Source of the DNA: Thermoleophilaceae bacterium
GTDB taxonomy: Bacteria > Actinomycetota > Thermoleophilia > Solirubrobacterales > Thermoleophilaceae
Direction: 5' to 3'
DNA: 64,000 nucleotides
Assembly: GCA_030448005.1 (NCBI GenBank)
Contig: JAUJNT010000001.1
Location: 221,884-285,883 of the forward strand
How positions within the stretch are numbered: the stretch's first letter is position 1; each line of letters starts with the position of its first letter. Positions 11,444 to 50,892 of this stretch are shown piece by piece. The notes below the pieces were generated by a model that had not been told where the DNA came from, made no database searches, and saw only the letters and a list, made by a program, of their open reading frames with translations. Both the position numbers and the translations under genes were made by a program.

Positions 11444-12899
11444 GCTGACCGCCGGAGCAGTCGTGGGCCTCCACCCTGCGCTCGGGGTTGCGGATGAAGA
11501 GACCGAGCAGCCCGCCTCCTGCCACCAGCGCGGCCGAGATGATCATCGCCATGTGGAAGGCGCCCTCGGAGGAGTCCGCCGAGTCGCCGTAGCGGGCCGC
11601 CACGATCGCGCCCACGATGGCGATGCCGAGCAGGCCCGCGAGCCTGGCGATGGCGTTGTTGACGCCACTGGCGATGCCCGCATTGCGCTCGTCTGCTCCC
11701 GAGAGCACCGTGGCGGTCAGCGGTGCCACCGTGATCGCGAGCCCCAGCCCGAAGACGAGCAGCGGCGGCAGGAGCTCCTTGGTGTAGCTCAAATCCTTGC
11801 CGAGGCGGGCCATCAGCGCCATTCCCGCCGCCGCCACGAACGGACCGGCGCTCATGAACAGGCGCGGCCCGTACCTGTCGGCGAGCGCCCCGAAACGGGT
11901 CGAGAGCAGAAAGAGGACCAGCGTGACCGGCAGGATGGCAGTGCCGGCCGCCACCGCGCTGTAGCCCGCCGCCCGCTGCAGGAACAGCACGAGGAAGAAG
12001 GACACGAGCGACAGCCCCGCGTACATCGACAGCGTCTCCACGTTTCCCACCGCAAAGTTGTGGCGGCGAAAGAGCCCGAGCGGCAGCATCGGGTGAGGGA
12101 TGCGAGCCTCGTAGGCCAGGAAGGCTCCGAACAGGACGATCCCGCCGCCGAGCGGCCCGAGCACGGTGGGGTCGCCAAAGCCCGCCTGCGGCTGGCGGAT
12201 CAGACCGAAGGTGGCCGCGGCCAGCCCGAGAGCGCAGAGCGCACCGCCCACCACGTCCACCCGGGCGCCATCCCCGTGGGCCTGCGCGCCGGCAGGCACC
12301 ACCCGCCGGACGAGCAGCAGCGTGATGAGGGCGAGCGGCAGGTTGATGGCGAATATCCACCGCCACGAGGCGGTGTCCACCAGTTGCCCGCCGATCAGCG
12401 GGCCGAGCACGAAGCCGATCGCCCCCCAGGCGGTCCATGCCCCCACCGCCTGTCCGCGCTCGTCCTCCGAGAAGCTGGTCACGATGATCGCGAGGGCCGC
12501 GGGCGTGAGCAGCGCGCCGGATACCCCCTGCAGGGCGCGAGCCAGGACGAGGGTCTCGATCGTGGGGGCAAGCGCGCACAGCAGCGAGGTCGCCCCGAAG
12601 ACCGCCACCCCGAGCGAGAAGACCCGCCGGGCACCAAGGGTGTCCCCGAGCGAGCCGCCCACGAGGATCAGCGAGGCGAGCGTCACGAGGTAGGCGTTCA
12701 CGGTCCACTGCTGTCCCGCAAAGCCGCCTCCGAGGTCCCCCCTGATCGCGGGAAGGGCCACGTTCACCACCGTCGAGTCCACGGTGACCAGGGTCGAGCC
12801 CAGAATGCACGCAGCGAGGATGATCCGCTTGCGCGGGGCCGTGATCGGTGCGGGGCCAGGCCCGGTCATCACCGGAGTATGCACCGGGGGCTCAAGCAT
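11379..12899 (-). CDS. MFS drug-exporter, DHA2 (EmrB/QacA) family
   Basis: This 506-residue protein has 14 predicted transmembrane helices, the DHA2 pattern. Helix 1 carries VTVDSTVVNVALPAIRGDL (motif D1 of 14-TM drug antiporters), followed by QWTVNAYLVTLASLIL, and the A-motif GGSLGDTLGARRVF between helices 2 and 3. The antiporter motif C appears as GALLTPAALAIIVTSF. It probably exports amphipathic drugs by proton antiport; the substrate is unknown. No TetR or MarR repressor is adjacent. Confidence 0.88.
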   Translation of the reverse strand: MLEPPVHTPVMTGPGPAPITAPRKRIILAACILGSTLVTVDSTVVNVALPAIRGDLGGGFAGQQWTVNAYLVTLASLILVGGSLGDTLGARRVFSLGVAVFGATSLLCALAPTIETLVLARALQGVSGALLTPAALAIIVTSFSEDERGQAVGAWTAWGAIGFVLGPLIGGQLVDTASWRWIFAINLPLALITLLLVRRVVPAGAQAHGDGARVDVVGGALCALGLAAATFGLIRQPQAGFGDPTVLGPLGGGIVLFGAFLAYEARIPHPMLPLGLFRRHNFAVGNVETLSMYAGLSLVSFFLVLFLQRAAGYSAVAAGTAILPVTLVLFLLSTRFGALADRYGPRLFMSAGPFVAAAGMALMARLGKDLSYTKELLPPLLVFGLGLAITVAPLTATVLSGADERNAGIASGVNNAIARLAGLLGIAIVGAIVAARYGDSADSSEGAFHMAMIISAALVAGGGLLGLFIRNPERRVEAHDCSGGQLTGVPHDAAEHRGPRSPAGVP

Positions 12900-43974: not shown

Positions 43975-44320
43975 ACCCTGGCCGCACGCCGCCCGCCCCG
44001 CCAGTCCTCGAGCCGGCATCGTCGTGTCGAAGTACCCGTGCCCCCTTCCCGCGAAACCGCGGGCGCGGTGACCGGCGCCTCACTGCTCACCGGCCGGATG
44101 CGCTCTTACCTGGATGACTCGGGTCGGCCCTCGGAAGTGGAACAGCTCGCACCTCCGGCTGCGGGCGCTGTCTCATCTGGCAGCTGGAGATCACCATTTC
44201 TCGCTTTCTGCCCCTACCGTTCGGGGAAGTGGTGCGTATCTCCAGCGCTTTTACCAGCATCGGATCGGCTTCAGCCAACTGTCTGCGGGTCGCGATCCCG
44301 CTCGGCGCAGAGCTGAACGC
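43975..44320. other. Intergenic region with long hairpin upstream of the MerR/B12 gene
   Basis: No gene is apparent. The main feature is an inverted repeat: GCTGGAGATCACCA (44183-44196) pairs with TGGTG (44230-44234), a CGT bulge, and ATCTCCAGC (44238-44246), enclosing a CCCC/GGGG inner pairing. A smaller CCCGCG-AAAC-CGCGGG hairpin is at 44047-44062. The sequence just before 44321 (CAACTGTCTGCGG) may hold the MerR promoter. Confidence 0.55.
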
Positions 44321-45259
44321 GTGAACCAGGCGCCCAAGTTGAGGATCGGCGAGCTCAGCTACCGCGTCAGGGTCCGTCCCGAGCTGCTTCGGGCGTGGGA
44401 GCGGCGCTACGGGCTGCTGCAACCGGCCCGCTCGGAGCGGGGCTTTCGGCTCTACTCCGAGGCCGACGAGCGGCGGGTGCGCCTGATGCAGCATGAGCTT
44501 CAGAGTGGACTGTCGGCAGCCGAGGCGGCACGGGAGGTGGCCCGAATGGAGTGTGAGAGCGATGCGGCGGACCGGGCCCTCGCCACGCCCCTCGAGCTCG
44601 CCAGGGAGCTGCGCGCCGCGCTGGAGGCGTTCGATGAGGCGGGTGCCCACGAGGTGCTCGACCGGCTGTTCGGCATCTACGGGCTGGAGCGAGCGATCCG
44701 TGAGGCCCTGATGCCCTACCTCCGCGGAGTTGGAGAGCGCCGGGAGCGCGGGCAGGGGGGCATCCCACATGAACGCTTCGCCAGCGGCCTTATCGAAGGG
44801 CGTCTGCTCGCCCTCGCCCGCGGGTGGAACAAGGGACCGGGCCGGCGGGCGGTGCTTGCCTGCCCCTCCGGCGAGGAGCACACGATTCCGCTCGTGTGCT
44901 TCGGCCTCGTGCTCCGCAGCCGCGGCTGGCGCAACATCTACCTAGGCGCCGACACGCCGCCGAGCACACTGCACATGGCAGCGGACACGGTCGACGCCGA
45001 CGTGATCGTGCTCTCGGCGGTCTCGAGCGACCGGTTCGAGCCGATCGCCAGGGACCTCAAGGGCCTGGCCCGCAAGCGGCCGCTGGCCCTGGCCGGCGGG
45101 GGCGCCACGCCCGCGCTTGCGGCACGCCTCGATGCCAAGTGCCTGACCGACGACCCCGCCACCGCTGCCGAAGCGTTCTCGAGGAGCTTCGTCTGCGACA
45201 AGAGCAACGGGCGTGCGGGCGTGCGGGGGTACGGGCGCAAGCCTCACCTCGTCGGCTGA
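44321..45259 (+). CDS. MerR-family regulator with cobalamin-binding-like domain
   Basis: This 312-residue protein has an N-terminal MerR HTH (LRIGELSYRVRVRPELLRAW, GFRLYSEADERRVRLMQ) and a C-terminal domain of the CarH/LitR type: helical RFASGLIEGRLLALARGWNK and Rossmann CPSGEEHTIPLVCFGLVLRS with His187 in the E-x-H-x-x-G position, though the Gly is Pro. The photosensory cap residues of CarH (a Trp and an EEH motif) appear as Arg141 and HER, so light sensing is doubtful. It precedes the ACP-AcpS fusion by 72 bp on the same strand. GTG start at 44321. Confidence 0.82.
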   Translation: MNQAPKLRIGELSYRVRVRPELLRAWERRYGLLQPARSERGFRLYSEADERRVRLMQHELQSGLSAAEAAREVARMECESDAADRALATPLELARELRAALEAFDEAGAHEVLDRLFGIYGLERAIREALMPYLRGVGERRERGQGGIPHERFASGLIEGRLLALARGWNKGPGRRAVLACPSGEEHTIPLVCFGLVLRSRGWRNIYLGADTPPSTLHMAADTVDADVIVLSAVSSDRFEPIARDLKGLARKRPLALAGGGATPALAARLDAKCLTDDPATAAEAFSRSFVCDKSNGRAGVRGYGRKPHLVG

Positions 45260-45331
45260 ACGGGCCCCGCACGCCAGCCCCTGAGGCTAGGATCGCAGCC
45301 GACCTCAGCGACTGCGAAGGAGGAGATTCGC

Positions 45332-46081
45332 GTGGCGGACGTGGACAGCGCCGTAAGGGAAGCGGTGGTGGGGGCCCTTGCCCTCGAAGCGGAGGAGGTA
45401 ATTCCGGAGTCGACCTTGATGGACGATCTCGGAGCCGAGTCGCTCGATCTGCTCGACATCCTGTTCAGGATCGAGAAGAGCACCGGCGTGAAGATCGAGG
45501 CATCCGCGCTGGGCGACTACCTCCAGGGGAGGCCCCCACGCGACGAGTTCGGCGCGGGCGCCGTGAGCGCCGATGAGGTGATGGCGCTGCTCACGGTTCA
45601 AAACCTGATCGACCTCGTCGAGGGCCGCGCCGGGGGCGCCCGGCGACCAAGCGGTCGCCCCCGGGTGGCGCTCAAGCTCCGGGTGGGAGTGGACGCCGTA
45701 CGGGTTGCACGCCTCGAGCGAGTCGTGGGGGACGATGAGCGACGCCAGGCACGTCTGTTCACACCGGGCGAGCTTGCCTACTGCCGCGGCAAGCGCCGCC
45801 GCTACGAACGCCTGGCGGCTCGCTTCGCCGCCAAGGAGGCGGTGCTGAAGGCGTTCGGGACCGGCATCAGCCAGCGCATGCGCTGGACCGAGGTGGAGGT
45901 GGTTAACGAGGCCAGCGGGCGTCCCCGCATCGAACTCGATGGTGCCGTGGCCACCTTCGCGCGGCGACACGGGCTCGAGGACCTCGACGTGTCGCTCACC
46001 CACACCGAGGATCTCGCGCTCGCCCACGCGGTGAGCATCTGGGAGCAGCCGGAGAAGGCAGGGCGAACCGGGCTGCGTTAG
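45332..46081 (+). CDS. Acyl carrier protein fused to holo-ACP synthase
   Basis: One frame of 249 residues holds two activities. Residues about 1-98 form an ACP: LMDDLGAESLDLLDILFRIE with Ser37 as the phosphopantetheine site (ESL instead of DSL), plus an insertion (residues about 58-85) typical of atypical ACPs. Residues about 116-240 form an AcpS: RVGVDAVRVARLERVVG (metal Asp121), RLAARFAAKEAVLKAFGTG (Glu169, Lys173), and DVSLTHTEDLALAHAVSIW. The linker is Arg/Pro/Gly-rich. AAGGAGGAG precedes the GTG. FabD follows after 35 bp. The enzyme would load its own carrier; which pathway it serves is unknown. Confidence 0.88.
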   Translation: MADVDSAVREAVVGALALEAEEVIPESTLMDDLGAESLDLLDILFRIEKSTGVKIEASALGDYLQGRPPRDEFGAGAVSADEVMALLTVQNLIDLVEGRAGGARRPSGRPRVALKLRVGVDAVRVARLERVVGDDERRQARLFTPGELAYCRGKRRRYERLAARFAAKEAVLKAFGTGISQRMRWTEVEVVNEASGRPRIELDGAVATFARRHGLEDLDVSLTHTEDLALAHAVSIWEQPEKAGRTGLR

Positions 46082-46116
46082 GTTGCGCGCCGGCTACGAC
46101 GGAAGGAGCGCCGGAC

Positions 46117-47055
46117 ATGGGCAAGATCGCGTTTCTGTTTCCCGGGCAGGGCTCGCAGCGGGTGGGCATGGGCTCCGAGCTGCTCGAATCGAGGCCCGAG
46201 GTCCTCGATCGCTACATGAACGCCGCCGACGAGGCGTCCGGCCTTCCCGTTCGCAAGCTCTCACTGGAGGGGCCGATCGAGGAGCTGACCGCCACCGAGG
46301 TGGCCCAGCCGGCCCTCTTCGCCACCTCGCTGGCCGTGCTCGACCTGGCACGGGAGGCGGGGTTCCAGCCGGCGTTCGTGGCCGGGCACAGCCTGGGCGA
46401 GTACACGGCGGCGGTTGCCTGCGGCGCCCTCCCTGCCGAGGTGGGAATCGAGCTGGTCTCCCTCCGCGGCAGGCTGATGGCGGAGATCCAGTCCGAGCGC
46501 CCGGGCGCGATGGCCGCCGTCATGGGCCTTGCCTCGGAGCGGGTGCAGGAGCTGTGCGGCACGGCTTCCGAGCTCGGCGTGGTGGCTCCCGCCAACTTCA
46601 ACACGCCTACCCAGATCATCGTGTCGGGCGAGGAGGCGGCCGTCCTGAAGGTGATCGAGCTCGCCGAGGAGGCGGGCGCCGACAAGGCGGTCCGCCTTCC
46701 GGTGGGCGCCGCCTTCCACAGTGAGCTGATGGAGCCCGTGCAGCAGCGGCTCGGCGAGACGATGGACGGCCTCGAGTGGAGCGATCCGGAGGTGCCGCTG
46801 GTGGGCAACGCGACGGGCGAGGCGCAGACCTCCGCGGCCGGCGTGCGGGAGGCCCTGCGCGCCCAGATCGCGAGCCCGGTGCTGTGGGCCTCGTGCACCG
46901 AGACGCTCGTCGAGAACGGCTGCGACACGTTCCTCGAGCTAGGCCCGGGACGCGTGCTGAGCGGACTCGTGCGCCAGATCGACTCCGAGGTCGAGACCTT
47001 CGCGGCCGACGGCCTCGCGAAGCTCGCCAAGTTCGCCGAGCGGCAGCGGGGCTAG
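46117..47055 (+). CDS. fabD: Malonyl-CoA-ACP transacylase FabD
   Basis: This 312-residue enzyme transfers malonyl groups from CoA to ACP for fatty-acid or polyketide synthesis. It has IAFLFPGQGSQRVGMG, the nucleophile AGHSLGEYTAAVACG (GHSLGE), GAMAAVMGLAS, AFHSELMEPV (catalytic His), and VPLVGNATGEAQTSA. GGAAGGAG precedes the ATG. It is co-directional with the ACP-AcpS fusion, so the two probably act together; no ketosynthase gene is in the window. Confidence 0.95.
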   Translation: MGKIAFLFPGQGSQRVGMGSELLESRPEVLDRYMNAADEASGLPVRKLSLEGPIEELTATEVAQPALFATSLAVLDLAREAGFQPAFVAGHSLGEYTAAVACGALPAEVGIELVSLRGRLMAEIQSERPGAMAAVMGLASERVQELCGTASELGVVAPANFNTPTQIIVSGEEAAVLKVIELAEEAGADKAVRLPVGAAFHSELMEPVQQRLGETMDGLEWSDPEVPLVGNATGEAQTSAAGVREALRAQIASPVLWASCTETLVENGCDTFLELGPGRVLSGLVRQIDSEVETFAADGLAKLAKFAERQRG

Positions 47056-48714: not shown

Positions 48715-49863
48715 GGCAGGGGCTACGAGACGCTCGTGCGCGAGGTCTCGGACTCGCTTCATCTGCGCCGCTTCTGTCTGATCGCGATCGACCAGCGGGT
48801 GCCGGACGAGTCGACCGTGCGCAAGCTCTGTCGCCGGCTCGGCGCGCAGGTGGTGGAGGAGATCACGCGGCTGGTGATCGAGAAGGCTCGCCGCGAGACT
48901 CGCTTTCATGGGCGCGCGGCGCGGATCGACTCGACCGTGATCGAGGCGGACATCCGCTACCCCTCGGACGCGATGCTCCTCGCGTTGCAGGGAGCGCGGG
49001 CGCTGGCGAGGGAGGGCCGCAAGCTCGCGCAGCTGGTCACGGGCAAGACGGTGCGGGTCGTCGACCGCTCGAGTTCGGTCGGGCGCACGGTGCGGGCGAT
49101 CTCCCGGACGCTGTCGTGCAGGACCGGCGAGGCGAAGGCGCAGCTGATCGAGCTGAACTCACGCGCCGGGAAGCAGATCGCGCGTTCGGCGCGCGAGGCG
49201 CGCCGCCTCGCCGCGCAGGCGAGGCGGGCGGCCCGCGGCCGCGGCGCACAGGCAAAGCTGCGCGGTGCGGAGGCACTCGAGCAACTCGCCGCCCGCGCCG
49301 AGAAGGTGGCCGAGCAAATCGATCGCCGCGCGCGGCCTCAAGATCTCAGATCGGCTCGTCTCGCTCGCAGACCCAGACGCGCGGCCGATCCGCAAAGGCA
49401 AGCTCGGCAAGCCGACCGAGTTCGGCTACGTCGCACAGATCTGCGAGGTGACCGAGAACACGAGGCCCGGCGCGCGCGGTTTCATCCTGCCGGCCGCCTA
49501 CGCCCCGGGGAATCCGGCCGAGAACCGGCTGCTGGGAGCCACCGCCGGCGAGCTCGAGCGGGCGGGGCTCACGCCACGCGAGATCGTCGCCGACGGTGGG
49601 TTGCTGCCCGGGCCGACGCTGGAGGCATTCCCCGATCTGCGACCCGACCAGGTCCAGGTCTCCGGCCGCCACGAGCCCGGCTCCAGAGGCACCGCAAACG
49701 CAGAGCGCGCTTTCGCACCGGGATCGAGGGGCGCATCAGCCACCTCAAACGCGGCTACGGCCTGCGCCGCTCACGCCTCAAGGGCACTGAAGGCGCGATG
49801 ACCTGGACCGGCTGGACGATTCTCGCCTACAACCTCGACACGCTCGCCATCCGGACCGGCTGA
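48715..49863 (+). pseudogene. Broken IS transposase (IS4/ISNCY-type DDE)
   Basis: A 5'-truncated transposase: GYETLVREVSDSLHLRRFCL and RFHGRAARIDSTVIEADIRY (catalytic Asp) in one frame, then from about 49330 the next frame gives ISDRLVSLADPDARPIRKGK and LGKPTEFGYVAQICEVTENT, and the last 150 bp return to the first frame with FRTGIEGRISHLKRGYGLRR (DDE Glu) and WTGWTILAYNLDTLAIR. At least two frameshifts. It ends just before the hairpin at 49901. Confidence 0.75.
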
Positions 49864-49900
49864 CAGCATTCACGACGCTCGATCAGAGCAAACCCAATTG

Positions 49901-49939
49901 CCCAAACGGCCGCGCCGGATAACGGTGCGGCCGTTTGGG
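49901..49939. terminator. 13-bp inverted repeat between convergent IS relics
   Basis: CCCAAACGGCCGC (49901-49913) and GCGGCCGTTTGGG (49927-49939) form a perfect 13-bp stem with a 13-nt loop between the two convergent transposase relics; probably a bidirectional terminator. Confidence 0.6.
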
Positions 49940-49942
49940 CGC

Positions 49943-50526
49943 TCAGCCGTTTTTCCGGGGCAAGTAGCTGGGTGCTTGCGGGTGCCGAGCGCCATCTGCA
50001 GCGCGTCGATGACGAGCTCGCTCGGCGCGCATGTGGCCGGCGAGCTGCCAGCCGAGGATCATGCGGCTGAACACGTCGAGGCAGAACGCGAAGAACACCA
50101 GTCCCTCCCAACACCGCACGTAGGTGAAGTCGGCGACCACCAGCTCGCCCGGCTGGGAGGCCGTGAAGTCGCCCTCCACCAAGTCGGGGCGCCGATCGGC
50201 CTCGGATCTGGCGTCGTGGTGCGCCACGGCCGTCCGCGCCGCTTCGCCCCCTCGATCCCGTGCTCGCGCATGATCCGCTGTACCTGACAGCGCGGGACGC
50301 GCTCCCGCGGCGACGCAGCTCCTTCCACATCCGCCGGTAGCCGTAGGCCTCGTAGTTCTCCTTGTGGTCCTCCCGGATCAGCGCGAAGCAGCCGCTCGTC
50401 CTCGCGCTCGCGCGCCGAGCGCTCGCCGCTCCGCCGGGCATAGTACGCGGAGTCCGATACCTCCAACGCCCGGCAGATCGGCTCGACCCCGAAGCGATCG
50501 CGGTTCTCCTCGACGAACACGCTCAC
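49943..50526 (-). pseudogene. IS3 orfB transposase remnant
   Basis: Pieces of the IS3 transposase occur in three frames: VSVFVEENRDRFGVEPICRA and LEVSDSAYYARRSGERSARE, then REDHKENYEAYGYRRMWKEL, then VQRIMREHGIEGAKRRGRP, then GELVVADFTYVRCWEGLVFF and CLDVFSRMILGWQLAGHMRA (first two DDE Asp). The final Glu region is missing. It cannot be functional. Confidence 0.75.
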
Positions 50527-50819
50527 CTCGATCGGGTCGGGTCGAGCTCCGTGGCGAAAAACACCGACGCGGCCTTCAGAATCTCGTTCGCCTTGCGCAG
50601 CTCGCGCTCGAGGCTCTTCAACCGCTCGCGGTCGACGCCGGTCAGACGATCGGCGCGCTCGCCACCGTCAGCCTCAGCCTGGCGCACCCACGCACGCAAC
50701 GACTCCGGGCCGATACCGAGACCTCTCGCCACCTGAGCGATCGGCCGGCCCGACTCGAACACGAGCCCCACCGCCCGCTCACGCAACTCCTCCGGATACC
50801 GCTTCTGTGTTGATGACAT
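50523..50819 (-). CDS. IS3-family orfA (HTH) protein
   Basis: This 98-residue protein has the IS3 orfA helix-turn-helix (YPEELRERAVGLVFESGRPI, QVARGLGIGPESLRAWVRQA) and a C-terminal leucine-zipper-like segment (KSLERELRKANEILKAASVF). The frame is intact, but the partner transposase is broken. Start ATG at 50819. Confidence 0.8.
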   Translation of the reverse strand: MSSTQKRYPEELRERAVGLVFESGRPIAQVARGLGIGPESLRAWVRQAEADGGERADRLTGVDRERLKSLERELRKANEILKAASVFFATELDPTRSR

Positions 50820-50892
50820 CGATCGAGCCTCGACTCTCTCCAGGACAGAACCCGGAATCGAGGTCTCCGTCAAACCCGGCCTGGCTCAGTAC

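Follow-up and report, generated by a model that had tools for sequence, protein, structure and literature searches.

The window, i.e., the whole stretch of 64,000 nucleotides that was analysed, contains a single open frame in which an acyl carrier protein (ACP) is followed by a holo-ACP synthase (AcpS), and the gene of malonyl-CoA:ACP transacylase (FabD) adjoins it (Table 1). On rereading, the frame was uninterrupted and PF00550 and PF01648 were found in one protein, which bears out the fusion described in the preliminary description. The ACP half matches the Pfam PP-binding family at residues 7-60, with 30.4 bits against a cut-off of 20.8, and its serine stands in a DSL-type motif at the start of helix II; the alignment has ESL at this motif in the fusion and ESI in the relatives. 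The AcpS half matches Pfam ACPS (PF01648) at residues 117-211 (61.4 bits, cut-off 25) and TIGR00516 (acpS) at residues 116-234 (79.6 bits, curated cut-off 59.8). It contains FAAKEAVLKAFGTG alongside the GVD aspartate, Asp121, and the profile score, this aspartate and the [FW]xxKE[AS]xxK residues together identify it as an AcpS. A GTG is present at codon 112 of the frame and has no recognisable ribosome-binding site. The AlphaFold model of the fusion, made from an alignment of two sequences only, has a pLDDT of 35 and was uninformative.

The ATG of fabD lies 35 bp past the TAG stop of the fusion, as had been noted earlier, and its product exceeds the TIGR00128 cut-off and has the active site GHSLGE within VAGHSLGEYTA. 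Directly upstream of the fusion, window positions 44114-45259 encode a MerR-type regulator with B12-binding domains (Pfam), which may be of the CarH/LitR type and respond to light or B12. Close downstream of fabD, positions 48736-50873 hold two transposase-type insertion sequences, one DDE-type with weak Pfam matches and the other IS3-like as judged by eye. No polyketide synthase (PKS) genes were recognised by Pfam among the tested neighbours, namely the MerR/B12 regulator, an esterase, AmtB and a transposase.

Table 1. Features of the fusion gene and of fabD, in window coordinates
Feature	Position	Strand	Evidence
Ribosome-binding site AAGGAGGAG of fusion gene	45317..45325	+	sequence; 6 bases before GTG
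ACP-AcpS fusion gene	45332..46081	+	GTG start, 249 codons, TAG stop; single open frame; PF00550 and PF01648 in one protein
ACP domain, residues 1-98	45332..45625	+	PF00550, 30.4 bits; core 57-75% identical to type II PKS-like cluster ACPs
Ser37, predicted phosphopantetheine site in LGAESLDLL	45440..45442	+	sequence; conserved across all aligned relatives
Residues 57-75, remnant of helix II-III insert common to cluster ACPs	45500..45556	+	alignments; absent from L035 (second species)
Arg/Pro/Gly-rich linker, residues 99-115 (~17 residues)	45626..45676	+	dN/dS 0.72; equal length in both species
AcpS domain, residues 116-238	45677..46045	+	TIGR00516 over cut-off; PDB AcpS relatives to 8e-17; genome's only PF01648 protein
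GVD Asp121 of AcpS domain	45692-45694	+	sequence
FAAKEAVLK (residues 165-173) of AcpS domain	45824-45850	+	sequence
Ribosome-binding site AAGGAG of fabD	46103..46108	+	sequence
fabD, malonyl-CoA:ACP transacylase	46117..47055	+	TIGR00128, 292.8 bits (cut-off 260.9); genome's only PF00698 protein

Occurrence of the fusion and selection on its parts

Relatives were sampled in 299 genomes of the class and 396 genomes of the phylum, the two samples overlapping. Among the sampled genomes, the ACP-AcpS fusion architecture was found in the genome of the window (G000) and in G301 only, and the earlier view that this two-domain architecture next to FabD is unusual is thus upheld. A scan of genome contigs with the fused protein gave one further record, L035 (Thermoleophilaceae MAG MGR_bin102), and the whole-genome search gave the same contig as G301:C83, from another species of the same genus. 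The fusion of L035 is a single frame of 230 aa, 78% identical to that of the window, with matching start site and linker length; GGAGGAG precedes its ATG at the same place as the ribosome-binding site of the window, and fabD also comes after the fusion. G301 is 68% complete, and the one PF00698 protein found in it is the FabD next to its fusion; this agrees with the window and proves little. The presence of one frame in a second species of the genus confirms that the fusion is real.

Between the two species, dN/dS is about 0.26-0.27 in the ACP half (Fisher p 7e-5), 0.14 in the AcpS half (p 2e-13) and 0.15 in FabD, and the linker evolves nearly freely at 0.72. Both halves of the fusion are under purifying selection. 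In the window, AcpS could on paper be translated by itself from the GTG of codon 112, but L035 lacks such a start. No ATG, GTG or TTG occurs between its residues 77 and 103 and the catalytic GVD comprises residues 100-102, so that an AcpS with its aspartate requires fused translation in that species.

Unfused relatives and probable origin of the pair

The strongest other relatives come from two other actinobacterial MAGs (G251:C191 and G532:C48), in which ACP and AcpS are separate adjacent frames flanked by fabG and by a hotdog-type gene and ketosynthases (KS). Both MAGs keep a second, canonical AcpS, and no other relatives of the G251 ACP were found in 103 genomes of its family. Type II PKS-like clusters are present in these MAGs outside Streptomyces (L131 in G532:C48; L068 and L167/L120 in G251), and they hold a KS-KS didomain protein, further KS genes, hotdog proteins and KAS III in addition to FAD/CrtI-like oxidoreductases and SnoaL-like proteins. 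The unfused pair also occurs near SARP/BTAD-type regulators on plasmids of Streptomyces sp. NBC_01003 (NZ_CP108708) and NBC_01260 (NZ_CP108465). The order there is acyl-CoA carboxylase genes-fabD-ACP-acpS-KS-KS-KS(long)-KAS III-aldo/keto reductase-FAD monooxygenase-ester cyclase, and this plasmid locus is a type II PKS-like cluster.

The core of the fused ACP is 57-75% identical to the cluster ACPs, whereas its identity to the two free ACPs of its own genome is 27-33%; the fused AcpS is about 46-55% identical to the cluster AcpS. In the alignment, the cluster ACPs have an insert of ~45 residues between helices II and III, of which about 18 residues are retained in the window ACP and almost none in G301. 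This ACP does differ from the other ACPs of the genome, but the insertion that had been taken to set it apart is a shortened form of the relatives' insert and no new element. In the AcpS tree, fused and cluster sequences form one clade (support 98/94 without Streptomyces and 99/98 with it), and the canonical AcpS of the window's own family form a separate clade (100/99). An origin of ACP-AcpS in a PKS-type cluster is well supported by these comparisons. In the FabD tree, the window FabD groups with those of G144, G251 and G106, which lie in PKS-like loci, and those of G157, G232 and G282, which lie outside such loci (97/97), and the FabDs of the own family's FAS operons are separate (100/100). 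The Streptomyces FabD joins the window FabD clade with a support of only 87/88. Since stand-alone FabDs (G282, G157 and G232) belong to the window-type clade, the case for a PKS origin is weaker for FabD than for ACP-AcpS, and such an origin seems less certain.

In all unfused relatives read, i.e., G251, G532 and two Streptomyces sequences that are not independent of each other, the reading frame of acpS is +1 to that of the ACP. The open frame of acpS extends back into the 3' end of the ACP gene, and in 3/4 a GTG lies over Arg-Ala codons of the ACP. With a +1 overlap, the loss of one base (or the gain of two) would fuse the genes, and we infer that the fusion may have arisen by a small indel in the ACP/acpS overlap. 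In G251 (L068 5133-5226, G251:C191), the acpS frame joins that of the ACP with a +1 shift at the ACP stop codon (TCC TAG T), and it has no ATG, GTG, TTG or CTG before the catalytic GVD. This junction has three candidate explanations: an indel in the MAG sequence of a gene that is really fused, a start of an unusual kind, and +1 frameshifting. In NZ_CP108465.1 (L169 12305-12395), the annotated acpS begins at a Met just before the catalytic Asp; a start at the GTG at 12305, as annotated in NZ_CP108708, looks likelier.

Gene inventory of the genome and the emptied slots

The genome G000 (3.23 Mb, 9 contigs, 96% complete) was counted for PF01648, PF00698, PF00550 and PF02801. The single PF01648 match is the fusion, and no second phosphopantetheinyl transferase was found at this completeness; the single PF00698 match is the adjoining FabD. 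PF00550 matches three proteins including the fusion, i.e., there are two free-standing ACPs (C1:785240 and C6:17885). The search for other acpP/acpS genes, suggested in the preliminary description, thus gave two further ACPs and no further AcpS. One KAS-II-type ketosynthase (PF02801) is present, in a fabH-fabG-acpP-fabF operon on contig 1. The fusion is not located in a cluster with several ketosynthases, and this lone PF02801 protein is on another contig.

In three genomes of the same genus (G124, G300 and G302), acpS sits between glmS and nnr. In G000, nnr starts about 40 bp after the end of glmS, and the canonical acpS slot is emptied. The gene order is fabD-fabH-fabG-fabF in G124, and fabD is also placed before fabH in G118; in G000 an unrelated minus-strand gene stands in front of fabH, and fabD is absent there. 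Both losses were read inside contigs and are therefore not assembly gaps. The loss of the canonical acpS from its ancestral slot and of fabD from before fabH is shown for G000 alone, as G301 is only 68% complete. The possibility that this is the sole, widespread housekeeping ACP arrangement of the lineage, raised earlier, holds insofar as the fusion carries the only AcpS found in G000. It fails on the other points, as the fused ACP is not the sole ACP and the arrangement is not widespread: in G124, G300 and G302 the searches gave a canonical acpS and no fusion.

Proposed role, alternatives and comparison with known systems

AcpS is a homotrimer that moves 4'-phosphopantetheine from CoA to the ACP serine. 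The residues needed for this transfer occur in the fusion, and as no other phosphopantetheinyl transferase was found in G000, the fusion most probably charges the ACPs of the genome. The sole PF01648 protein, the sole PF00698 protein and the single KAS-II also indicate that AcpS and FabD most probably serve general fatty-acid synthesis, and a housekeeping job is the most likely one for the fusion. As a whole, the findings, which come from MAG and genome sequences, are best explained by a PKS-derived pair that fused, displaced the housekeeping acpS and now serves a general role, and we regard this explanation as likely. An ACP and acpS pair of a PKS cluster would have been joined by a small indel and would have left its cluster together with a FabD. 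The fusion would then have taken over the housekeeping role, and the canonical acpS and fabD would have been lost afterwards. With its AcpS domain assembled as the trimer typical of AcpS, the fusion would use CoA to charge both free-standing ACPs as well as its own Ser37, and FabD would then put malonyl onto the holo-ACPs. Self-loading at Ser37 is plausible, and the ACP domain, charged in cis or in trans, would probably be kept as an extra carrier.

The preliminary description had proposed that, in this organism, the self-loading, specialised ACP and FabD may start a pathway dedicated to a lipid or polyketide. The cluster-type ACP sequence, the adjacent FabD and the location of related pairs in type II PKS-like clusters are in line with this proposal, but no second AcpS or FabD was found in the genome, the only KAS-II belongs to an ordinary fatty-acid operon, and the tested neighbours gave no recognised PKS genes. 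The proposal fits the ancestors only and is improbable for the present organism, although KAS-III, ketoreductases and dehydratases lay outside the genome-wide count, which leaves room for a small dedicated role. It is also rather unlikely that only the AcpS half matters and that the ACP half is vestigial or structural (solubility, trimer stability or self-inhibition) and no acyl carrier. The insert is eroding, being full in the cluster ACPs, partial in the window and almost gone in G301, and the ACP has the higher dN/dS (about 0.27, against 0.14 for the AcpS); on the other hand, the ACP is clearly under purifying selection (p 7e-5), Ser37 and helix II are intact, and this conservation argues for the use of the fused ACP. 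A further reading makes the fused ACP a working housekeeping malonyl/acyl carrier in a partly self-charging fatty-acid synthesis, while some cluster relatives may fuse by +1 ribosomal frameshifting, a possibility that arises because acpS is +1 in every relative read and G251 has no start before the catalytic Asp. This combined reading seems doubtful.

An assembly or sequencing artefact that joined two neighbouring genes could be produced on paper by one missing base, given the +1 position of acpS at the ACP 3' end in the relatives. Two separate MAGs, however, have the same fused frame, start and linker length at 78% identity, and with no internal AcpS start in L035 an artefact is very improbable. 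The fusion is almost certainly not a fragment of a type I fatty acid synthase (FAS) either. Alpha chains of that enzyme hold both domains and resemble the AcpS half at 3e-7 to 4e-14, but the nearest relatives are free-standing type II genes and type II FAS genes are present in the genome. Moreover, the chain lacks the KS, KR and other domains that accompany ACP and phosphopantetheinyl transferase in such a synthase; the two domains are adjacent in a protein of only 249 aa with clean start and stop.

Compared with known systems, the ACP and acpS pairs of the clusters (Streptomyces plasmids, G532 and G251) have the same type of ACP insert as the fusion, and on the Streptomyces plasmids fabD adjoins the ACP as FabD neighbours the fusion. 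Unlike the fusion, these pairs are two genes with several ketosynthases around them. Bacterial AcpS (e.g., PDB 2jbz) shares with the fusion the GVD, the FAAKEA signature and the full domain, but is normally a free protein of about 120-140 residues, whereas in the fusion an ACP precedes it. The type I FAS alpha chain resembles the fusion in having ACP and phosphopantetheinyl transferase on one polypeptide, with similarity of sequence in the AcpS half; that synthase of ~1,880 residues has many further domains, and the fusion consists of those two only. Enediyne-type iterative PKSs (CalE8 family) have their own phosphopantetheinyl transferase domain and a carrier protein on the same chain, but they are large type I PKSs, unlike the stand-alone two-domain fusion. 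AcpXL serves the very-long-chain fatty acid of lipid A. AcpXL/RPA2022 (PDB 2kw2) resembles the fused ACP in the helix II region (1.1e-6) and is likewise longer than an ordinary ACP, but AcpXL itself is unfused. The score for AcpXL (PRK06508/NF005079) was 34.5 bits against a curated equivalog cut-off of 83 bits, and this assignment was rejected.

The fusion exists, it is rare, and it can be accounted for as a variant of known components; no description of a stand-alone ACP-AcpS fusion was found in the literature searched, the coverage of which was partial. The role of AcpS is highly conserved, and the enzyme is usually small and stands on its own. In G000, a near-universal step has apparently been passed to a fused enzyme with its closest relatives in secondary metabolism, and the original gene has disappeared from its slot. 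The change can be read as a housekeeping function being supplied anew by secondary metabolism. The fusion is also a natural two-domain protein for the direct measurement of ACP loading in cis versus in trans. In G282 (L170, G282:C183), a window-type FabD is the only PF00698 match and lies between glucoamylase-like and 6-phosphogluconolactonase-like genes; this is perhaps a second replacement of the canonical fabD, without a fusion.
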